In this document: one piece after another, positions 16,028 to 40,124 of the stretch
Position numbering within the stretch: the first letter of the stretch is position 1
Layout: each line of letters begins with the position of its first letter
DNA from: Whitmania pigra
Taxonomy: Eukaryota; Annelida; Clitellata; Hirudinida; Haemopidae
NCBI GenBank assembly: GCA_021613335.1
Contig: JAJTWR010000182.1
Coordinates: forward strand, 1,467,501 to 1,531,500
DNA: 64,000 nucleotides
Direction of reading: 5' to 3'
Translations under genes and position numbers: made by a program
The notes under the pieces: generated by a model
Databases searched by the model: none
The model's input: the letters and a program-made list of their open reading frames with translations, nothing else
What the model was told of the DNA's origin: nothing

Positions 16028-19000
16028 TCAAAGGCATCTCAAATCCAGAGGAACTTTAGAAGTTGAAAGGTCAAGGGCATGCAGGCTAAGATCCTCGGGT
16101 AGGTCGGTTGATGGGTTTGTCTGAACTCTGGACATCTTTCGACTGGGATGAGCTTCCAATGAGTTTGGCAGATTTGCGGACTTCTGGTTGGAGAGGTTTA
16201 AGCATTCCTGGTTGGCATCGATATTTCCGGTTGATTCAGTTAAAAGAGGATCGAATCCATTAATCGTTGATGGATTCTTCATCCACGACATCTGGTTTTC
16301 TCGGACGAATTCCCTAATTGACGTGGCGTACGAGGATTTGTGTGGAACGATTTGTCCACTGGAGAATTGCAATTCTTTGGCGATGGTCTCACTTCTTGGA
16401 CGGTTGGAGCTAGCAGAGACAATTCTTGTGTTAAATATGGGTTCTGATGCTGTTAAACTGGGAATGGTTTTCGGTGTCGAAGTGGTCTTTTCCCAATGAT
16501 CACTCGAGATGGCATCGGTGAATCGGCCGAAGTGTATCACGACTGCAGAAGAAAACTGCCCGGGTTGAACAGGCGAATTTTGTGGCGACGGCAGACCACA
16601 GTGTTCTCTGAAATATCAGACATTCTTTACATTAAATTGGTTGAAGATTTTTAAGAGTTCGCGTCATACGAAACACTTTAATTTGTCAATGTCAGACGCT
16701 TTAGATTCTACTCCGCTTTTGTTGGGCTTAATTTAAAAATAAGTCCATTGTTGGCATCAATTATGCGCCGTTCTAATCTAATGATGCAGCTTTTCGGAAA
16801 GAACCTAACAAATTATTCGTTATCATTGACAGTGATGGATAATATTAAAATAAAATTCTTTTTTTTTAATTTGATTTGAAATCATTCCAAAAAAGGATCA
16901 TTGATCATTGTTCTTACATTACCTTATCTTCAGTTCATAACGAGACAATGTTGAACATATTTGAGCTCGGCTTAAAAAGTTGGCTTACTTTTTAATAAGT
17001 AATTAATTAAAGTTATTACATAAAATTAAAGTTATTATTATTAAGATTAATATTGTTGTTGTTATTCTTGGATATTAACAACATTTATTTCCGATGTAAT
17101 GGTTATGGGTTTTTTTGTACTTCAGGGTTCTATTTTAGGTCCAAGTTTAATAGCTGAAAATATTAGCATATTTGCAATAATTGGTCCTTATATTAATACC
17201 AAAATAGCACTTCTATTATATTTTTTTCTTACTTAACCCAAATAACTCTATCACTCTGTGGGCCTATAGTTATAGTATACATTTATGAATATTAAACATT
17301 TTACAAATGATTTAAAGAAGTATTTTTTGTATCGTTTTTTTCGTCACCATTTTTAACTTCGACTAATTTAACTTTGTAAACAACACCATATATATACATA
17401 TAAGTAACATATTCAGTTTACAATTTACAATTTTAGTAAAATATAAAATTTGCTCATTTTCTGCTCTCTTATGATTATAATGCTTTCCCCAAGATATTTT
17501 CAATGGTGACCCGTCATAACAGCCCGGCGACAGAATAGCCCGACAAAACAGCCCCGACAAAACAGCCCCGACAAAACCGCCCCGACAAAACAGCCCCGTC
17601 GAAACAGCCCGGCGTCAAAATAGCACAGGACGGAAAAATCCCGTCAAAATGGCCCCGTCAAAATAGCCCCATGTCAAAGTATTTTTTAAAAATGTTGTGA
17701 AACTGAATCAAAATTTAATTCGAAATTAGTGGCTTGAATGCTTTGATCGTTTTGAGTATTGTTTGTTGTTATTATTGTTCTCCAGAAGTTTAATTTGTAT
17801 AGTCTTGCTTATTCAAATTTGTATCTGGCTTACAAATTTGTGTTGACATTATCCTGATCACAAGTTGCTTGTGAGGGGTCCTTTTCAAAATTGAAATACG
17901 TTTTGAACAGATTAAGAAATTTTCTGAACCAGTCAATTCTACGATCATTCATGCTGATGTCTTGTGAGAAAGACTCTTTTCCAAGAACCAATAACAATGA
18001 AATCATTGATGTTTTAGCATCGACTAGTGAAACGATGAAAAAGCTGTTATAATTTTTGACGCCGGGCTGTTTCGACGGGGCTGTTTTGTCGGGGCGGTTT
18101 TGTCGGGGCGGTTTTGTCTTGAGCTATTTTGATGCCGGGCTGTTTCGACGGGGCTGTTTTGTCGGGGCTGTTTTGTCTTGAGCTATTCTGTCGCCGGGCT
18201 GTTATGACGGGGTGCCATTTTCAATAGGCGATTGGAAATGGATGACACTTTTATGGCCACTCTGAATAATATTCATCCCATTAAAATGGCGTTATTTTAA
18301 CCCTCATCCGTTACTTTGCGATTTGTTTTGCTACTGTAATCTCATTTTTAAAATCATCCAGTTATCTTTCAGGACATTGTAAACTTATCATTTCTACATG
18401 TGGTCATGCATAAAAAATAAAAATCTGTTGAAGTAAATTATTGCCGGCATATTTTCTTAACCATAACATCTTCAAATAGTTGAATAGTTGGGTTCGAATC
18501 CGCGCTGCCATCGCGAGGGGCGCAGCCTTAACCATTGGGCCATGCGGGCGCACTCCCCCAGAATACGTCCTGTTTAAAATTAATTTCAGAGACGGAACGA
18601 GCAATGCCGGGTATAACATCTAGTAATTTGATAAAACCTTAAACAAAAAATTTAATAAAAATTTAATATTAAATTTTAAAAATTGTATTAACCATTAAAA
18701 AATAAAAAAATTAACAAAATCATTAAATTTATTAATTTATGAAAACATATTCAGAATCTTTTACTAATACCTCATACTACTTATTTGCTCTTCACAAGCA
18801 ATAACTGATCTAATAGAATTACATTGCATAAGAAATCTGATTCTTAAACACAACAAATCATAACATGGAAGTTAAAAATTCATGGAGCAATGTTTTGGCA
18901 GCAAGCAGTATAGCTCTCAAAACGCATTCGGACCAGGAAAAAGAATATGAATCAATTAAGGCCCTTGTTGATATTATGAGGGGTCCACGCAGGGAATTCA

Positions 19001-22000
19001 TTAACACAAAAGTAGCAGAACATGTTGCGAGGTATATAATACCACCTCTGGAGGATGGAAAAAACATTTCCGATGAAGATTACAAGCAAAGGTTGGAACG
19101 ACTGAAAACCTTGGTGAGAGTTATTCTTGGCATTTCCAAGGATGAAGAGTGTATTGGTTCCACCGTTACAATCGAGATGAGCGAATCATACAGGACAGTA
19201 GTTCGTTATTTTGTTCAAATTATCGATCATCTTCGACCGAAACATAAAGACCATGGGTTTGATCATGACCTGGAACCGTACCAGTTCATTACCCCTACAA
19301 AACCGAATGAAATCTATTTGGAAATATATAGATACCCTGCTCTGCTCAGTTTGATCGGGCCTTCAAAATGCCCACTAGAATTCTATACGACCAATCTTAT
19401 ACAAGCAATAAGGATAATATCCATCTTGTACAAAGTCAATCAACACTGGGGAAGTTTGTTTGGCATTCTCACGAGCCGACAAATAGTTCCAGATTCTGCC
19501 TTCCATATAAAAGACATCAACATCCAGGATATAGAAAAGATTCTTTGGACCAAGACGTTATTCCAATGTTACCCTTTTCTGTTTGAAACTGAATTGCGAC
19601 AAGAGTGGTGGAATTCTAAAGTTTTGAAACCACGTCGTTTAAGGCGACAGCTAACTGACAAAATCACTTTCACAGTTTCAAGAGGTGACACTTTGGAAAT
19701 TGTCGGAAAAATTCTTTCAACTGAAAACACAAATTCAAATTGGTTTTTTAAGTTTGCCAATGAAACAGGAACAGGGACTGGTCATACGAATGATTTTTAT
19801 ACAAAATTTTCCAAGGATATTCAAAGATATGACATGAATCTTTGGATTGGTGAATCTCAGTTGTCATCGGATGGTATCAATTACGTTAATTCTTACTGTG
19901 GGCTTTTTCCATCGCCATGCAAGAGCCTGGATACAAAGTCGAAAAATATTTTAAAAACAACCGGAATTTTAATGGCAAAAGCTCTGTTGGATGGGAGGTT
20001 AATGAATATAAATTTTAGCCCTCTTTTGTATAAATATCTGATAGGAGGAGCTGCAGACTTTAACTTGAGCGATCTCAAATATGTTATGTCATCGTTGACT
20101 AGTCATGTCGACATGCTCGTGGAAATTATGAAGGAGGCATTAAGGATTAAGAACGATATCTTTCTAACCTCCGAAGAACAACAACATGCGTTATCTGACT
20201 TACAGTATGGCGGATGTTCACTTGAAGATCTTTGTATAAATTTTACTCTTCCTGGATTCCCTGATATCGAAATGTTCAAAGGAGGAGCTAATACATACCT
20301 TTCTGCAAGCAACATTTTAGGATATCTTGAGTCGCTGATTTGGTGGTTCCTCTACAAAGGTCCACAGGAAAAATTAGAATGCCTGCGAGATGGATTCACA
20401 TCGGTGTTGCCAAAGGATAACTTAACCAGCATCTTTCCCGAGGATCTGGAAAGTATGCTGTGTGGCGAGGAAGTTGGTAAATGGACATTAGGAGATCTCA
20501 AGCAATTTGTTGCCTTTGGCAAAAATCTGAGACTAGAATGTCCTGTCAGTCATTATTTGTTTGAAGTTTTATCGTGTTTTTCCGCAAAGGAACAGAAACT
20601 ATTCCTAAAATTCGTCACCGGCTCGCCGAACTTACCCGTTGGAGGATTGATCTCTTTAAAACCGAGGTTAACAATTGACACCTTTAAAACTGCGGACAAT
20701 CCCAACAGGTATTTGCCAAAAGCAATGACTTGTACAAATACCCTGATTATTCCCGTGTATACCAGTAAAGAGGCACTGAAATGGAAACTGTTGCAAGCAC
20801 TACGTGTAGCTTCCGACTATTTTGGAATGGTTTGAAAAAAGTTTCGGCCGATTTTATTTATTTAATTGTTTAAATTTTAAGATTTATTTTATTTTAAATA
20901 AAGTATAATTTCTGTTTAAATTTGTTTTGATTTTGTGGATATCTCAAGCAGGGACCCATAATAAATGATCATCTCATGTTTTGCAGGGGGTTGCTCAGGG
21001 AATAGGCAGAATTGTGGGAACATAATTTTGAAAATCAAAATAAGATTATATTATATACACATTTAGCATGTTTGAAGTCGTTAGAATATTCCATTTTCAA
21101 TATTTCTGATTATCAAGTTATTTTTAGAATAAGGTTTGAATATTGCAAATAGAGGCTTCAAGCTATTTACACCAGTGGCGCACAACCCGCGGACCACATC
21201 AGGCCCTCGACCAATCGTCAAGTGGACCGCGAAGGCTGACAAAAAAAGTGAAAAACAGATCTTCCAGTCAATTTTCGTTAGCCCTCATCCGTTACTTGGG
21301 GTAACATGTCGCGCAAATGATGCGTCGACGCCTGTTTATCGAAGTCTCGGAGGGCCTCTCGCCCAGCCATTGATTAGAAGATGTTTGGTCAACACAAACC
21401 AACTCAGAAAACCGATCATGGATGGAATTCAAAATCTCGAGTTAAACTCGGGAGAACTTGAGACAATGAATGAAAGACTAAGATTAGCTAAAGTGAAGAA
21501 AACACAAGGACGTTGTCACCTGCGCGAGTTTGAAGTGCTGTAGACCTGCTTATCCATTTCACCTTGCCAACAGATCAAATGTGACAAATGCAACGTACAA
21601 TTTAGAGATATTATTCGTAGAAACATTGATCAATTTTATAATTACATTTAATATCAAATGAGCAATTGAATTAATTTTAATTTGATAAAAAAATATTGTT
21701 TACATTCATAAATTTAAAATAAATAGAATTGATATTGTTCAAACTAACTTTGCAAAAAAGTCTCTTAATTAATATTAAATGAAAACGAATATTGGTGCAA
21801 TTTGAACTCCAAGAATCCGGAATGTAACTTTTTAGCATGTACCGGACGAGGGTCAAATTCGTTGTCTAATTCATGGTTTGGCTCGAATTTGGCAATGTGC
21901 GTTTGCTTGCAGGATCAGCGCACCGAATAACTAAACTAGTAGAAAGCCTTTATATTCAAGTTAAACAATCGTATGCTTATTCTACTAAGTAAATTTCCAA

Positions 22001-29449: not shown

Positions 29450-30615
29450 TGTAAAAAGTACCACATTTTAGTAATTTGGTAAAAGTACAAGTTATACCTC
29501 AAATATTTACTTAAGAAAAAGTAAAAGTATTTCTTTAACAATTTACTTAAGTAAAAGTAAAACGTTACAGCAATTAAAAGTTACTTAGAGTAAAAAAGTA
29601 AAAGTACTGATGTCGCCGTTATTGTGATCATACATAATTCTATATTATTTAAATGTCTATGTATAAATTGTTGGTACTAACTGATAGTACTTATAGTCAT
29701 TAAGTAATTAGATAATAACATTTAAACTAATAAAAGTTTTTATTATTTATTTACAATCACAAATGTTTGCTAACTTTCAACATAATTAAGTTCTAGTCCG
29801 ACGGCTGCTCAATGTCTGACAAATGGCTGTAGAACTGTTGCTTGGTGAAATTTCCTCTTTCGCTCTCATAGTCGTAGAAACCTATCTCTTACGAGCACTT
29901 CTTGTCAGCAATTCATACTTCGAAACATGTGCTGGATGCATGCGTTCCACATGTTTCTTCAAGTTTGACGATGAACCTTCTTGAACACATAGTTTTTTCT
30001 TATTTGCACAGTTGGCATGCAAACTTACATGCTTTTGCTTCTTTGATTCAAATCAAAACATTGTGATTAAATATGGTCACGTGTGCTCTTCCATGTTGTT
30101 CCTCTTATCATTGCTGCCTATGTTCAAATTGGCTTCCGGTTATTGGATTATATATATGTTTATAATTAAGTTCTAGTCCGTCGGCTGCTCAATGTCAGAC
30201 AAATGACTGGGGAAACTGTTGCTTTGTGAAATTTCCTCTTTCTTTTTAATATATAAATTAATATTTTTAGTATGTTAAAAAACTTCGATATTATTAATCC
30301 ACAAACTGCGATATAACTAAAACTACCGGCGACAACTACAATAACAAAAGAACGACTGATCGAAAAAGAAAAAAAGTTCTCGAACCAACCAAAAAATAAT
30401 AATCGTTTAGAATTTAAAAAAAATAAAATAAAATTCAACTAATTTATAATTTTATATACGTTACTTTGTGACTCTTTGCGTCAAAAAAAGTAACGAAGTA
30501 AATGCATGACCAAAAATAGTAATTTGTTACAAGTAAAAATACAGAAAATTGTTACAAGTAAAAAGTACAAAAAACATAATTAATTACAGTAACGAATTAC
30601 GTGTACTTTCCTCAT
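29450..30615 (-). mobile_element. Decayed hAT element with BED zinc-finger remnant
   Basis: The left end reads CAGTGTTGTAAAAAGTACC and is followed by repeated AAAAGTA units. The right end (30440-30615) carries the inverted counterpart, without the last bases. On minus, 30025-29880 encodes SSSNLKKHVERMHPAHVSKY, the H...H half of a BED zinc finger as found at the N-terminus of hAT transposases. An internal 75-bp segment is present twice (29788-29863 and 30171-30245). No transposase catalytic region remains. Confidence 0.65.
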
Positions 30616-31051
30616 TTGAAAATTCTGGTCGCCCAAGACGTACAAAAGGACTTAAAGACATGACACCTTCTCTGCTTTATGAGTACGAACAAAGTCTTAG
30701 AGCTTCTACCGTTTCGCTAAAAGCGTTAATCTTTATTCTGCACGCAAGAACATGCCAAGTCTTTTTTTTAGGCAAACAATCTGATTCTGCTTATGCAAAA
30801 AGAAGGACCATTACATAATATTGATAAATAATAACAACAGCAACAAATAATTACAAAACCAATAATAAAACCTTTGCCTCTATAGAGATTTATTTATGGC
30901 ACTTTGAAAAAAATCACACCATCCAAACATAACCTGTAACACAATTTTCTCACGAAGACCAAGTATTAATAAAAAACTTCAGATAAAAAGCATAGGATTG
31001 AAATAGACGATCTTCAATATAACTTGAATTTTTGATCAACGAATGCTTTCG

Positions 31052-31118
31052 TGCGCCCGCATGGCCTAATGGTTAAAGGCTGCGCCTCTCGCGATGGCAG
31101 CGCGGATTCGAATCCCGT
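31052..31118 (+). repeat. tRNA-like repeat, copy 2
   Basis: CGCCCGCATGGCCTAATGG (A-box region) and GGATTCGAATCCCG (B-box) are spaced 40 bp apart. It is the same unit as the minus-strand copy at 18483-18552, differing at about three positions. Confidence 0.5.
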
Positions 31119-31554
31119 TGCGAAAGCACCGCCCTAATCATTTAGATAGTTAACGGACGTTAATAAAACATTATTTAGTGAATGCTCCCAAAATATATAT
31201 TTCCGAAGAAAAATCGATGTGTCACTGAAACTTCATGAGGTTTTTGGTTAATCAATGAGTTTTCGTAGTCTCGCAGCCGATGAAGCAAAACCTTGGTAAA
31301 GTGGCGGGTACCGAAACCCAGTGCCAGTGAGTTGGCTAGTCACTACTCCAATAATCCCCTAAAATGATCATTATATGTCATTGGATCGGATCTCATCTAA
31401 GTGACACAATTTTAAGGGGTTGTATCTTTAATCCTAATCCTTATATTGTTTTGTTTGTCAGCTCAGTTATCTCAACAACAAAATCAGGTTAGATCCAGGT
31501 TAGGTAAAAAAAATGTGTACATGTCAGATTTTGGACTACCAGCTTAAGGCCTGT

Positions 31555-31650
31555 AATATATAATATTATTATTATAATAATATAATATAATATAATATAA
31601 TATAATATAATACATGTTATATAATATTATAATTATTATTATTATAATAA
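31555..31650. repeat. (TATAA)n/ATT low-complexity tract
   Basis: Runs of TATAA and TTA. No other content. Confidence 0.8.
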
Positions 31651-32478
31651 AGAAGAATGATTTAATGCAAAGAGGTCGTTGTTGAATGATTATAGAATCG
31701 CGCCAAAATGTTAGACGTTTACAACAAAAGGTCCTTCGCAAGAACACAAGGTTATTGCACCTTTGATTGAGTGTCTCGACGTAAATGTCAAGTAACTGTA
31801 TGGTCAGACAAAACTTATCAGCCAGCCTAGGTATGAAGTATTGCATAAATAAACAAATTATTATATAAATTATCTTTTATTGAGAAACCAAAACCAATTT
31901 CATGCATACCTGGCGTAGATCTCACGGAATTCGGAACATAATACCTGCATACCATGTATTAATAAAGTAAAAATGACGAAGTAGTATTATTGTTATATTA
32001 TTATTGTCAATGTTATTAATTTTATTACTACTACTTCATTAATGTTGACATTTTTATTAATATTAACCGGATTCAATAGATTCAATTCAAGTATCGACCC
32101 AGATTATAAACCATTGTTCAGCTACTGGTATTGACTTTCTTGTCATATTTGATCAAAAAAACCAATAAACTTTCACATTCAGATGTTCGGAGATCGAAAC
32201 TTCTTTTTGAAATGCAAACGTTTAACAGGAAGACCAATTTGGCAATATGCTAATTTTCAGAAACGTTTGAAAATTGAACTTATCGAATAGCATTGTCCTT
32301 TCTAGAAGTTGTCACTTAGCCTGCTTAAAACACGAAAAGGCAACACGCCATTGTACTAAGTTTGTTTTTTGGATCTTGTATCGTAACGTTACTTGTTTAC
32401 AGATTGAAATGCATTCATAGCTGAGAGGGTTCATTTATTCGTTATATTTTTGCAATACAACTTTTACAATGACTTATA

Positions 32479-32652
<174 letters not shown>

Positions 32653-32659
32653 TAATTAA

Positions 32660-34110
32660 ATAATGTTATATATATTATATTATAATATTATATAATATAT
32701 TATTATAATTATATTAAAATATAATTATTGATAATTATTTCAATATAATAATATTATTACAATCTACCTCCGTAATCACCAGCCACAGCATCAAAATGCA
32801 AAAGTAACTGATTCGCGAAAAAAATTAGAGCAATAATAACTAAATTTTTTGAACTAATCACGTAAAACAAATAGAAGTTTTATCTGTAATGCCTGGATTT
32901 TGAGGACAAATGAATCCTAAAGAAGCTAAAATAATATTTGGAAAATATTAATGTTTTTCTTTAACTAATGATTATGACGTAATAATGCCTTAACAATCAA
33001 GACTTAAGCATAATTGTGGCTTCCTACTGAGATTAATTCTCACCAACCATGACAATGACATTCCTGACATTTTCACATCGTTCTGATTTCTTAAGTGCTG
33101 GATTTGACATGTCAAGTCCAGCATTTGTTTGCTGTTAGCAATTTATTAACTAATAGCATTGGTTAATTTCTAAATCTGATGGATAAATTGTTATTTTTAT
33201 TAATTAATATTTAGGGAAATTGGTAGATAAAATAATAAGGTTTATTTCAGCTGATTTAATTTTATCTAATAAGAAGCTGAGCGATAAATAAATAATAAAT
33301 AATTAAAAAAATTTTAATGCATAATAAAAAAATGTAAAATAAATAAATTTGTTATTGTTATTAACAATAATTAATAATTAAATTTAAAAATAATAGTCTG
33401 GATAACTAATGATACTGATTGTTTTCATTGTCGCATGGAATTTGATTTAAAATAATTACGCTATTTATTGCTAAAAATGGAAAATTTTTAATCATTTGAC
33501 ATGTTTAATTATAAATATAAAATCAAGAGTCTGTCGTCTGTCCCAGAGTTTTGATTGGTTAAAATAAACTCCATCCAACAAATAAACTTGGCCCAGAAAA
33601 TGAATAAATAATCCTAAATCCATTTTAAAATTTTAAAATTTTAAAAAATAATTTAATAAAATTGATTAAATTTTAAATTTGATTTTGATTCAATTTCTTT
33701 TTTTATTACTTGGTGCTAGAGCATGGTTTATATTGTTGTTGTAAAGTTAATCATATCTTGAATTGCTAATTAAAATGCCCAATAGACAATATTGGGAGAT
33801 TGACTTCAGTGAATGGACCTGGTAACATTAATAGTATTTTGTTGATGATTTCACAAATATATTCATTTTTGGCAGCAAGAACGGCCCTCAATTAATTTTG
33901 GTACTGTAGAAATCAGGTTACGAAAATCGGATGAGAGTTTACATTTAATCTACCTTCTGCAATATCCAGTTGTCAGTTTGAAAAATGTTGAGCACCATCA
34001 TTTCAAAGATGAACTCTCATGTTTTGTCATTTGAAAACATAAATTATACTTTCTGATGTTACTAAGAAAATGCATTGATGCAGACATATATCCTGATGTA
34101 TAAGCCAAAA
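32660..34110. other. Intergenic, no gene recognised
   Basis: Very AT-rich, with no open frame worth naming, up to the ACAT microsatellite. Confidence 0.5.
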
Positions 34111-34113
34111 GAA

Positions 34114-34298
34114 GACATACATACATACATACATACATACATACATACATACATACATACCATACATACATACATACATACATACATACTACATACATAC
34201 ATACATACATACATACATACATACATACATACATACATACATACACATACATACATACATACATACATACATACATACATACATACATACATACATAA

Positions 34299-34328
<30 letters not shown>
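34114..34328. repeat. (ACAT)n microsatellite, 5' flank of the retrotransposon
   Basis: About 215 bp of ACAT with a few slips. The same repeat resumes at 38099-38147 on the far side of the retrotransposon, so the element interrupts one microsatellite. Confidence 0.95.
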
Positions 34329-34329
<1 letters not shown>

Positions 34330-34373
34330 GTACAGACGGACCATCAACGGACTACCGACTTTGCTTCCAACGG

Positions 34374-37300
34374 ACTTTCGATTCTGAACAACGCCCAGGA
34401 CAATGGCGTGCCAGTTAGAAGATGTACGTGTGGAAGAGTTTTCGCAACCGAGAGGGGACTCAAAGTCCACCAAACCAAATCAAATTGCGGGTGTGAGGCA
34501 TTGAGACAGCGTACTATCGCAAAGTTGCAGATAGGTAAAACGCCGGACAACACCGGACAGGAGTCACACCACAGCTCCGAGTGTGTCCGAGTCTCTCGCC
34601 AAGGACAAGACCCCCCAAGAAGCAGGATAAGGTTCCCTCGAGGAAACGACAAGAAAGGCTGGTCAGGACTGGATGAGGAACTTAAGCAAGGACTTAAGAA
34701 AAGCCTGAAGGATGGATCAGTGAAATCCTTCAGTGACTTCATCTATAACAAGTGTATCGAGAGATTTGGGGTCGTGCCTGTCAAACGACCCCAGGAAATG
34801 AAGGACTCCAGGCGACAGCGTGAACTCGGACGCCTCAAAAGCGAAAAGAAAGCGCTTCGCCGTCGGTGGAAAGTGGCCAAAGAAGACGAGAGAGAAGGAC
34901 TCTCCGTCCTATGGGAGGACGTGAAGAGACGAGTGAGGGACTTGCGCCGCGCTGAAAGAGGGAGACAGAGGAAGTACGAGAGGAGGTGAGCTATGAGAAG
35001 CTTCTTTAGCGATCCGTACAGATACGGAAGATCGCTACTAGACCCTCCGAAATCGGGAGAACTTTCTGTAGAGCAAGACAAGTTGGAAGAACACTTGCTC
35101 AAAACGTATAGTGACGCACTCCGCCATGAGTCTCTACAGGAAAGGGCCGATATCCCAGCGGTGCCTCTGCCGATCAGTCCCTTTTGCTTGGCGGCTCCTT
35201 TGTTCGAGGAGGTGAGAGGAGTTGTGAGGAAAGCGAGAAACCGATCAGCGCCAGGGCCCAACGGAGTTCCTTATCTCCTGTACAAAAGATGTCCCAAGAC
35301 ACTATATCTGCTGCATTCCCTCATTCAGAGAGCGTGGTCGGGGGTCACGGTCGATGATGAGTGGAAAAAGGCAGAGGGCGTCTACATTCCAAAGGAGAAA
35401 GACTCCAATGGTCTGAGTCAATTCAGACCAATATCGCTGTTGAACGTAGAGGGGAAAATATTTTTCTCTATCATGGCATCGAGGCTCACGGAGTTCGTGA
35501 TGTCCAATCAGTACGTGGACATTTCAGTCCAAAAGGGAGGCATTCCAGGTGTACCCGGTTGTATCGAGCATACCTCGATGATCTGGGAAGCTATTCAGAG
35601 AGCCAAGAGAAACCGGCTGAGTTTGTACGTCGTGTGGTTGGACCTAGCGAATGCATACGGGTCGGTACCACACCAGCTCCTATGGAAAACATTGGAAGCC
35701 CATCATGTGCCTCAGCCCGTTATTCACATCCTTCAGGAATACTTTAACGGGTTCATGATGCGGTTTTCCACCAAGACGTACACTACAAGGTGGGTGTCTC
35801 TGGAGGTTGGTATAGCAATGGGGTGCACAATTTCTCTTTCCTTATTCGTACTGGCGATGCAGATCCTACTGAAGGCAGCCGGGTCTCGTACTCCAGAGGC
35901 GCACATTGGTAAACTTAAGCAAGGACTTAAGAAAAGCCTGAAGGATGGATCAGTGAAATCCTTCAGTCTTCAATCCGAAGAACCGGTGAAAAGCCTTGGA
36001 AGGGTTTTTGACAAGTCTCTCACCGACAAGAGCATGCAGGACGCCATTCTCCAGCAAACCATTAGGGGACTGCAGGCGATTGAGGCGGCACCGCTGCAAG
36101 GGCGGTTCAAAGTGTGGTTGCTCCAGTTCGTGCTCCTTCCAAGACTTCTCTGGCCGTTAACCATCTATGAGATTGGCTTGTCAGTGGTCGAGAAGCTAGA
36201 GAGGAAAGTTAACCGATACACCAGAAAATGGCTAGGCCTACCTCCAGCGCTGTCATCGGTAGCCCTCTACAGTAGGAGCACGAGCCTGCGACTACCACTA
36301 AGGTCCATCGTGGAAGAGTACAAACTCTCCAAAATAAGAACGCAGTGGATGCTCAACAACTCCGCGGATAGCAGGATCCGTGAAGTCAAGCCACTGCTTA
36401 GATCTGGAAGGAAATTCCGAGCGCAGAATGAGATCGACGAATCAGTTGCCGAGCTGATGTTCGAGGAAGTGAGAGGTCCTACCCAGACGGACCGTCATGC
36501 AGTAGGATGGAACCACCTGCCAAAATGGTCCCAGGCGAGCTCATCAGTCAGAGCCACCATGATTATCCAGGAAAGGAGGCGAAAAGTGGAACAGGACCGA
36601 GTCACGAGGGCAGTTCAGCAGTCACAGCAGGGTAAGTGGACAACGTGGGAAGACGTGATGCAACGATCCCTTACCTGGAGCGACATGTGGAAAATGTCCC
36701 CGCTCCGACTTGCCTACGCGATAAGGTCAGTGTACGACCAGTTGCCCTCCAGGGACAAGTTGCAGAAGTGGGGTATGGTGGAAGACACCGAATGCCGGCT
36801 CTGCGGCGGTACAGAGACACTGCACCACGTGCTCAGCAATTGCACGTATGCCCTTGCTAACGGTCGGTACACATGGCGACATAACCAGGTCCTTCGAGAA
36901 GTGTGCGAAGCCGCAAAAGCAGCAGTCTCCAAAGCAAACTCGCGTACGATCGCAAATCAGCGAAAGATTTACTTCTTGCGCGAGGGCTTCGCACACCTCA
37001 GCAAAAAGAGATGTCAAACCCCAAGGCGAGACATTCTTGCAGAGGCAAACGACTGGACCATCGCAGCCGACTTAGAAGGGATGAGGCACTACCCCCAGGT
37101 GCTGATAGAAAGTGGCAAGAGGCCGGATCTAGTGCTCGTATCGCCGTCGACGGATGCCATCATTCTGGTGGAGCTGACGGTTCCGTGGGAGGACAGGCTG
37201 CAATACAGCAATGCGCTCAAAGCAGACAAGTATGCAGATCTAACGATGGACCTGGAAGCGAGAGGATACCGCACAGACCTCTACCCTATCGAGATTGGCG

Positions 37301-37503
37301 CAAGGGGCGTGGTCGGCAAGTCGACTTACGCTTTCCTCACTAAGATCGGATTGTCAAGCCGAGAGAGAACAAAGGCTATGACAAGGATGTCTGAGGCCGC
37401 TGAAGCGGCTTCATTCATGGATCTGGCATATGAGAAGCCAGAAGAAGTCTTAACAGGCCACTACACGAAACCGGGGAAAGCCGTCGGTCTCCGGTATGAA
37501 TGA
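34374..37503 (+). pseudogene. Retrotransposon polyprotein: zinc finger, reverse transcriptase (catalytic segment lost), CCHC, RLE nuclease
   Basis: The N-terminal finger CTCGRVFATERGLKVHQTK gives target-DNA binding. A basic linker (KKALRRRWK) follows, then a TGA in place of the Arg codon found in the second copy. Reverse transcriptase motifs present: RSAPGPNGVPYLLYKRCP, FRPISLLNVEGK, motif A LDLANAYGSVPH with its Asp, and motif B GIAMGCTISLSLFVLAM. Motif C (the xxDD pair) and D should come next but are missing. Instead KLKQGLKKSLKDGSVKSFS appears, copied from upstream. The frame resumes at VKSLGRVFDKSLTDK, the normal thumb. C-terminal CX2CX7HX4C (CRLCGG...HHVLSNC) and RPDLVLVSPS...ILVELTVPWE (PD-X14-E) form the restriction-like endonuclease. 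The nuclease looks intact; the polymerase cannot be active. Confidence 0.9.
35912..35967 (+). repeat. 56-bp exact copy of 34679-34734 patched into the reverse transcriptase
   Basis: All 56 bases match the upstream segment, and flanking bases differ at once on both sides. It is in the same reading frame as the source and sits exactly where the motif C/D region is missing. Confidence 0.9.
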
Positions 37504-38098
37504 TCCATCGAACGACGGGGCCAAACCATTGGCCGAGAGACGCGGTGTTGTCGGGAGAAATGGGCCGACCGCGGACTCGCGAAGCAACATGAACTGCGGT
37601 CCAAACCGCGGCTTCGAAAAGGCCCGCGGTCGAGTCCCGAAAATTTCTATCTCCGGCTGCCGCTACAAAGAAATTATAAGGCCCAGTTTGCATATATTAA
37701 GGCGGTGTGAAGAAGCCACTGAGAGATGCATGACCGCTGTAGGCAAACTGGGGTGGAGGCGATCGACATAACAAGGCCAATGAGAGCCCCGCATAGTCGA
37801 AGTTTGCAGGCGACAAACAGACAGCATGCGACATGAAGGAGCCATTGAGAGCTTTCGCAGTCGCTCCAGTCCAGGCAGCAGTGACCGGCATAACAAGGCC
37901 AACGAGTGCCTCTCAAAGCCGGCGGTAAGAGTTGGGTCCAGCAAGACCAAACCGACAGGGACATCCGGCTGATCACCGGATGCGGCCCGCCCTCCGAAAA
38001 CGTAAGGAGACTCAAAGGGCCGAAACGTTTGAAGACGGGGGAAACTCCTCTGAGGATCCCTGTCGGAGCTCCAAGGCGGAGTATTTAGTAACTAGTAA
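37504..38098 (+). other. 3' UTR of the R2-type retrotransposon
   Basis: GC-richer than the genomic background. It has two imperfect copies of a ~125-bp unit containing (C/G)CATAACAAGGCCAA (about 37711-37790 and 37836-37910). The last 150 bp (ATCACCGG...GGGCCGAAACG...CCCTGTCGG) is shared with the derivative at 59380-59440, marking the family's conserved 3' tail. Confidence 0.7.
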
Positions 38099-38147
38099 CA
38101 TACATACATACATACATACATGCGTACATGCGTACATGCGTACATGG
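38099..38147. repeat. (ACAT)n/(GTACATGC)n, 3' flank
   Basis: About 22 bp of pure ACAT that passes into three GTACATGC units and runs directly into the Tc1 relic. Confidence 0.9.
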
Positions 38148-38720
38148 CAAGAGTGAAATGGGCCAAAACCATGCTCTCTAACCGAGATGGTTTGAGCAAT
38201 ATTATTTTTTCAGATGAGCAGAAATTTAACCTGGATGGACCTTATGGTCATGAGTTCTACTGGCATGACCTCAGATTAAAAAAAAAAACATTTTGTAGCC
38301 GAAATCATGGAGCAGGATCGGTGATGATTTGGGGAGGAATTTCCAGTAAAGGATTGACTGAATTAGTCTTTCTGGATGGGAGACAGCTTCGGTGAATTAC
38401 ATCAAAGTTTTAGGAGATCATTTCTTGCCTTTTGGAAAAATCATTATAGAGGAAATTTTATTTTCCAGCAAGATAATGCCCCGATCCACACTTCCAAGTT
38501 GACAGACATTTTTTCATAGCATAAATTTGAATGTTGGGAGTTGGCTTGTTTCCCGGACTTAAATCTTATAAAAAAATATCTGGGGAATGTTGTCAAGACT
38601 TGTTTATAACAATGGAAGGCAGTTTCACTCAAAACTGACCTGGAAACCCCATTAGGAGTGCCTGGAAAGAACGGGGCAGAAAATTCTTAAAAACCTTAAT
38701 AAAATCTATGGATAACGGTT
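38148..38720 (+). pseudogene. Tc1-type transposase relic
   Basis: IIFSDEQKFNLDGPYGHEFY carries the first catalytic Asp. It is followed by WHDLRLKKKTF, GAGSVMIWGGISSKG and, after frameshifts, FQQDNAPIHTSKLTD with the second Asp. At the third acidic position, relatives have PDLNPIENLW and this copy reads PDLNLIKK, so the Glu is lost. The N-terminal DNA-binding half is missing; the coding begins right at the microsatellite. Inactive. Confidence 0.8.
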
Positions 38721-38759
38721 GTTTTAAAGTTATTGACAATAAAAGAAACATTATTTCTT

Positions 38760-39960
38760 ATTAATAAACTTTCTTTCTTGTTTTTTCACAAGGTTTTTAT
38801 TCATTTTTCGATGATTTTTGAAAGTCTCTTTCCTATTTATTGGATGCCCCGACATCACGTTTTTGGAATTTTTAAATTAATGCATGAACATATTTTGACA
38901 AAAATTTAACAGGTAATCACAAATATATAAATACATAACATATTAAAACACTGTACTAAAGTAAGACGAAGACACGATCCGATTTCTAGTTGAATTTTTT
39001 ATCAAAAGTAAAAAGAAATTAAATTTTTAAATCAAATAATAAAAAAATAAAACAAAAATAAATTTGCAATCATTTTTTCAAATGCTTTACTGTCTCTTAC
39101 CTGCGAAATTCGTTCTTGTCAGTGGTCAACCCGGTCTGGCATTACATTGTAACTCCTGAGTTTTGATGACGATAATGATGATGATGTCAAGATATCATTA
39201 GATGCTGTTTTTGAATAGTAAATAATGAAAATACATTATAATCCCATATTTTCCATATTTGGGTGTGGCAGATTTGGCAGTGCCAATATCCAACCAGTAC
39301 GACCAAGATTTCCATTGATGCTGCTGTCAGATTATCACTAAGTGGGTCCTAATTAAATGAAAATAAAAGGTTTGAGGCCCTCAGAATGATTCATATTTAA
39401 ATATGATTAGGAACGTATTTATTTTTATGGCGCCATAAACGTAAGCAGGCTACCCTCTGAGCTAACTCGCACACCAGTAAATGCCTACTTTCCTAATAAA
39501 ATTATTCTTATTTCTATTTTTAACAATTAAATATTTTTTTCGTTTTTTTTTCAATATTATTGTTCTTCTGAGGCTCTGACGTAAATGCTTAAACATTAAG
39601 ACAGCTTGAGCTCGTCATGTTTTAGTAAAGCAAACCATCAAATCGATCCTTAGTAATGTTGTTATTTTGGTCGGAAGGCATCATATAAGAATTTATTTAT
39701 TTAGTATTTCCAGATTTTCTAAATCAAGTGCAGGACACTTCTGATTAGGACTGATCAGCGAAGTGGAGCGAGTACTGAGTTTGACGGAGTTTTAGAGATT
39801 CGAGGACCAGATCCAGAGAGCAGAAAATCAGATCCTCATTCCTGTTATTCAATTCCAATAACTGAATAGTTTCAATAATAAACATAACAGTTAACTTGTT
39901 TGTTTGCGAGCCCTGTATTATTTCAATATCTCCTTTAATGTTAGTTGGTTAAAAGGTTTA
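38760..39960. other. Intergenic; one tRNA-like half
   Basis: No gene. On minus near 39475-39440, GTGCGAGTTAGCTCAGAGGG followed by TAGCCTGC resembles the D-arm half of a tRNA or tRNA-derived SINE. Confidence 0.4.
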
Positions 39961-39973
39961 TTAATAACGATTT

Positions 39974-40124
<151 letters not shown>

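Follow-up and report, generated by a model that had tools for sequence, protein, structure and literature searches.

In the human genome, Pace et al. (2009; PMC2671141) describe 824 cases in which a transposable element is broken up by sequence copied from no more than 5 kb away; the average donor distance is given as 1.2 kb, with the donor mostly located within 5 kb, and the breakpoints sampled in that study show microhomologies of 2 to 9 nt, fillers of 1 to 68 nt, and deletions of 1 to 15 nt. In the account of polymerase theta-dependent repair in Caenorhabditis elegans (PMC4490562), deletions accompanied by inserts of nearby sequence make up 24% of the deletions at transposon breaks. In the pertinent passage of PMC2912911, an internal deletion and a template switch are merely listed among uncharacterized insertions. 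The case described here lies within a stretch of 64,000 nucleotides of the Whitmania pigra genome (the window), in which a young copy of an R2-type non-LTR retrotransposon, recognized by homology to 20 fetched sister copies, occupies positions 34335 to 38100 of the forward strand (ends approximate).

A repeat scan of positions 30001 to 40000 confirmed the observation from which the analysis started, made in a sequence-only reading of the locus: the segment at 35912 to 35967 of the forward strand (the patch) is an exact copy, 56 of 56 bases, of 34679 to 34734. The latter is the native, donor-like place of these 56 bp, on the same strand in the N-terminal region of the open reading frame (ORF), and sister copies that reach this far carry them at the same place. 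The two copies are spaced by 1233 bases (3 × 411), and because this distance is divisible by three, both are read in the same frame, each yielding the peptide LKQGLKKSLKDGSVKSFS. The 56-mer has 13 exact matches in the genome, of which 2 lie in the window and 5 form a tandem array (contig C367), and the donor can therefore not be assigned to a particular copy. A chance repeat is ruled out by the complete identity together with two unique junctions, and by our own reckoning such a repeat would have a negligible probability in an element of 3.8 kb. Because identity ends at both edges of the 56 bp, a more extensive duplication within the element is ruled out as well. A donor variant lacking 2 nt, with which the whole 59-nt patch would be collinear, was not found anywhere else in the genome when up to 2 mismatches were allowed. 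Dating of the patch by donor/patch differences is uninformative (0 found, compared with 0.26 expected if the patch were as old as the copy). The array itself, located near the end of contig C367, consists of five exact 56-mers at steps of about 2683 bp (G000:C367:333314-344098; locus L073 covers 332900-336100). Its tandem unit holds about 350 bp of the retrotransposon (window 34520-34869), and in an ungapped comparison of 518 bases, neighboring units have 96% identity.

At the left junction, the acceptor and the donor have AA, the first 2 nt of the patch, in common, that is, a 2-bp microhomology. At the right junction, a 5-nt filler, CTTCA (35968 to 35972, forward strand), is located between the patch and the acceptor and is not collinear with the donor; the donor stretch ends with CAGT, and the acceptor also has CAGT just before the rejoined base. 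Given that CTTCA recurs 2 nt farther on in the donor and within the end of the patch, the filler may be templated or untemplated. With up to 3 mismatches allowed, neither junction sequence has a second occurrence in the 178-Mb assembly, and the event is thus private to the window copy.

Sister copies were sought in the same assembly (178 Mb, 381 contigs) with positions 35600 to 36300 as the query, which produced at least 73 matching pieces, 40 of 427 candidates being scored. All 20 fetched copies are continuous through the site; 19 were aligned directly, and the continuity of L064 was read with L055 as the reference. Between the acceptor flanks (window 35913 and 35973, forward strand), the 19 aligned copies have about 218 bp (1 to 2 bp fewer in L067 and L071), compared with 59 in the window. 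The comparison at this site is with paralogous copies, all of which lack the patch. The segment of about 218 bp encodes motifs C (FMDD) and D; FMDD is present in all 19 sister translations, those of L067 and L071 being frameshifted farther on, and is absent from the window copy, so that the patch indeed sits where motifs C and D belong. A protein search identified 740 relatives among 7989 scored candidates, and the motif C pattern was found in this block in 117 of the 120 relatives listed; the three exceptions are P0011, which does not cover the block, and P0066 and P0081, which differ at the second aspartate. The FMDD of P0003, a related full-length protein, aligns onto the FADD of R2 structures. 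In the window copy, 73 residues are replaced by 20 (a net loss of 53), and about 218 bp are replaced by 54 to 56 copied bp plus 5 nt. The initial interpretation of a deletion filled with a copy of nearby sequence therefore stands, with a size of about 218 bp rather than about 250 bp; its prediction that sister copies would have the missing segment and no patch was borne out, whereas the loss of 80 to 90 residues that it anticipated was too large. Beside the site, at a position matching window 35993, L063 has a 12-bp insertion that by eye partly mirrors the adjacent bases (TTCCAAG beside CTTGGAA) and resembles a small hairpin-templated insert.

The missing segment starts near GGTAAA and ends with CTACAG, which by eye resemble splice sites and might suggest splicing of the transcript prior to insertion. 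Splicing of this kind is inconsistent with the junctions, since the GTAAA retained in the window copy would have been lost and no 56-bp copy would have been gained; this origin is scarcely credible. An artifact of assembly or reads has to be considered in a family with many near-identical copies. By reasoning, however, both junctions must exist in the reads to be assembled, and if the assembly had collapsed at the 56-mers, the intervening DNA would be missing or doubled, and two new junctions would not result. The contig is 3.1 Mb long, both junctions are unique, and the only full-length match of the left-flank DNA among the 40 of 132 candidates scored is its own place; we regard an artifact as quite improbable.

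As initially claimed, the frame stays open across the patch: an 836-aa ORF (34993 to 37503, forward strand) comprises the reverse transcriptase (RT) up to motif B, the patch, the thumb/linker, a CCHC knuckle, and the nuclease, with the motif names given to these segments being our presumptive assignments. The ORF matches RVT_1 (E value, 1.8e-15) at profile positions 1 to 140 of 205 only, matches zf-RVT as well, and aligns with R2 proteins and with L1 ORF2p of solved structure; a non-LTR RT domain is present that, in the window, is truncated at motif C. A C-terminal PD-(D/E)xK-type nuclease region is found in which R922, P923, D924, E939, and K955, which we take to be the catalytic residues, are conserved in relatives and retained in the window; the alignment of this region to the R2 nuclease is weak. 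In the relatives P0001 to P0005 (1057 to 1067 aa), the N-terminal region and the RT are encoded in one frame. A Cys/His cluster is visible by eye in the N-terminal part, in which no Pfam finger was found. The knuckle (C813, C816, H824, and C829 in the joined frame; at least 95% conserved in relatives) has the form CX2CX7HX4C, which fits the spacing CX2-3CX7-8HX4C stated for restriction-like-endonuclease LINEs in PMC5678591. Taken together, the R2 alignment, the CCHC spacing, the C-terminal RPD...E...K region, and the one-frame relatives suggest that the window element is one copy of a single-ORF R2-type family. Site-specific insertion is described as general in the restriction-like-endonuclease group (PMC5678591), but in this genome the 3′ flanks vary widely among copies, several having one repeat context in common, and the family does not look site specific.

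The flanks and ends of the window copy were read partly by eye. The host site is a CATA-type microsatellite, and the copy is 5′ truncated relative to some sister copies. Its 3′ end is directly adjoined by a remnant with broken frames (window 38150-38520) that, by eye, we take to be a Tc1/mariner-like transposase; elsewhere in the window, a 656-aa open frame with a HECT domain (PF00632) is located at 18865-20835, with 37 protein relatives found. The 3′ ends of L025, L027, L028, L037, L041, L042, L047, and L072 lie in one downstream context (CATCACGGCACTGGCC...) that by eye resembles the sequence beside the 5′ end of L044, a possible head-to-tail arrangement or a repeat in common. In L065, about 125 bp before the 5′ end of the copy, 468 bp of internal element sequence (369-836; 96% identity) lie in the orientation of the copy and could be either a template-jump product or the remnant of another copy.

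Over the 3500 positions compared with at least 6 of the 20 copies, the window copy carries only 8 private substitutions (0.22%) and is young; 5 of these are nonsynonymous, 1 creates a stop, 1 is synonymous, and 1 is noncoding. The private in-frame stop codon (34987 to 34989, forward strand) splits the N-terminal and RT parts of the single ORF. It is found in four loci that are the window copy itself and in none of 55 rows from other loci, which overlap, with several per copy (49 sense codons, 4 gapped, and 2 not covering the site). A private 1-nt insertion on the same strand (37417, approximate), seen against all 10 copies from L053 to L062, shifts the frame of the C-terminal tail and changes the last residues, with the loss of two tryptophans near the end that are at least 95% conserved in relatives. 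Among the columns conserved at this level, 147 are unchanged in the window copy, 7 fall in its gap, and 8 differ, namely, 4 in the patch, 2 near 36712-36754, and the 2 tail tryptophans. The sequence-only picture of an intact nuclease without a polymerase under a long frame must accordingly be given up: the stop cuts off the N-terminal part, and the insertion shifts the tail. Catalytic-looking nuclease residues remain in an incomplete protein. Because the catalytic DD of motif C, as assigned by alignment, is gone, the product is not expected to reverse-transcribe. The frame that is open through the patch might also point to a nonautonomous subfamily or a domesticated endonuclease deliberately devoid of the polymerase core; the chances of this are remote, considering that the patch is private to one copy, that a stop lies upstream and the tail is frameshifted, and that only 1 of the 7 private substitutions in coding sequence is synonymous (5 are nonsynonymous, and 1 creates a stop), which gives no sign of constraint, albeit in small numbers.

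We consider it probable that the window holds a defective genomic copy with a repair scar, left by synthesis-dependent or alternative end joining after insertion. Presumably after insertion, the RT region would have undergone a double-strand break or fork stalling and lost about 218 bp; through AA, one 3′ end would then have paired with the beginning of the donor segment, 1.2 kb upstream, in the copy itself or in an identical sister copy, would have been extended by 54 nt, as shown by the identity, and, after the addition of 5 nt more, would have been joined to the other end. The style of joining is polymerase theta-like, and a similar enzyme may have been responsible. The frame would have stayed open by luck, with a net change of −159 bp and no stop in the patch in that frame. 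Repair is favored by the exactness and privacy of the patch, by the 2-bp microhomology on the left and the 5-nt filler on the right, and by the agreement in distance, microhomology, and filler with the repair-mediated duplications presented in PMC2671141; conversely, the 218-bp loss exceeds the deletions of 1 to 15 nt tabulated there. Patching of the break with a cDNA fragment made by the RT of the element from its own RNA appears improbable; if this did occur, a retrotransposon copy was sealed by the enzyme of its own family, ending its own career.

The patch could alternatively have arisen during insertion if the RT of the element left the RNA at 35973, copied 56 nt from the part of this or a different RNA that encodes the N-terminal region, and returned at 35913. 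This route requires two internal jumps, out and back, and the extra 5 nt would suit untemplated nucleotide addition. R2 enzymes jump between templates in vivo, for example, to small cellular RNAs, as reported in PMC3414825, but the jumps described there go to other RNAs, at the 5′ end of the element, and for their internally deleted elements, the authors of that paper considered nonhomologous recombination the likelier origin. Template switching is possible but, in our judgment, unlikely.

To separate post-insertion repair from at-insertion template switching, internal deletions of at least 15 bp were counted across the family. Sister copies are rich in internal deletions of a similar style: 38 were found in 44 copies (window included; one common to L042 and L047 counted twice). 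Among these, 17 have an overlap of 0 or more, with a mean of 2.1 bp compared with 0.69 for random breakpoints, and the overlap is at least 2 bp in 11 of the 17, compared with 17% expected at random. The remaining 21, including that of the window, have fillers, some of which may reflect where BLAST pieces end. When fillers are set to 0 overlap, the excess of microhomology shrinks, which weakens the case for repair (mean, 0.95; 11 of 38 with at least 2 bp versus 17% expected, by our own reckoning), and overall the excess is modest. Seven fillers of at least 8 nt were tested, and only that of the window has a strong match outside the deleted interval, so a long, distant template is unusual in the family, which also counts against repair; the fillers of L020, L046, and L048 have matches inside the deleted interval, and neither the filler of L070 nor either of the two in L044 gave a match exceeding the 95% level for shuffled sequences.

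Internal deletions rise with private divergence, a proxy for age that varies with the copies sampled. Across 45 copies with 36 events (the deletion common to L042 and L047 being left out of both), a rate dependent on age only fits far better than a constant rate per kilobase (likelihood-ratio statistic, 33), and the fit does not call for an additional at-insertion term (0.6), which argues against template switching. In this regression, L055, as the coordinate reference, necessarily has 0 deletions, coverage of the element is partial at many loci, and the deletion counts and regression table were transferred by hand between analysis steps. The age effect persists without the window copy (44 copies; statistic, 34) and in L051 to L072 plus the window (23 copies; 15.3). 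Below 3% private divergence (39 of the 45 copies), the statistic is 5.2, and below 2% (36 of the 45), it is 2.7 (Spearman P = 0.057); in the latter range, the age effect is weak and an origin at insertion is at least as likely, and below 2 to 3%, the copies would accommodate an at-insertion component equal in size to the post-insertion one. In a copy as young as that of the window, only about 0.2 post-insertion deletions are expected, which counts against repair; the fit below 2% gives 0.26 at insertion versus 0.15 after, and that below 3% gives 0.24 versus 0.16. Thus, the accumulation of deletions with age favors post-insertion break repair over template switching, although, taken alone, the youngest copies fail to distinguish between them. 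It is on this basis, an age fit that holds over 45 copies and is weaker in the youngest, that we consider repair after insertion probable and template switching unlikely.

The event is real and private, and the dead retrotransposon copy most likely bears an ordinary scar of templated repair. The window copy shows, in clean form, how such an insert can sit within a coding element and illustrates a trap for automatic annotation, in that a dead polymerase can go unnoticed when the frame is open and the nuclease motif is retained. The more useful by-product is the family-wide picture of internal deletions, many with microhomology or short filler, that accumulate with age; because they do, copies of the element could be read as a history of error-prone repair in the genome.

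Compared with R2 proteins of solved structure (9nl3, 9dou, 9nl2, and 8gh6), the RT and thumb/linker of the window element align, and the nuclease aligns weakly; unlike these, the window family is distant by sequence, has FMDD as motif C, and has copies that are not confined to one site, and the window copy lacks motifs C and D. Like SIDEs, the internally deleted R2 elements treated in part of PMC3414825, it is an R2-type element with an internal deletion, but SIDEs are mobilized as families, whereas this is one dead copy. As in polymerase theta joining according to the results excerpted from PMC4490562, homology is minimal and a deletion is accompanied by an insert identical to nearby sequence; the inserts there come from close to the break, in contrast to the 56 nt from 1.2 kb away in the window. 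Also close are the interrupted elements of PMC2671141, in which, among the cases detailed, at least 50 bp from nearby is inserted with microhomology and short filler at the joints. The window has an insert of 56 bp (at least 50), a donor 1233 bp away (less than 5 kb), with identical donors existing elsewhere, and joints with AA, CTTCA, and about 218 bp lost. Two differences stand out from the breakpoints and screen as described there, namely, this loss, compared with 1 to 15 nt, and a donor that is itself a repeat, whereas that screen required a single-copy donor, excluding repeats. Apart from its larger deletion, the window event closely fits the published repair-mediated duplications.
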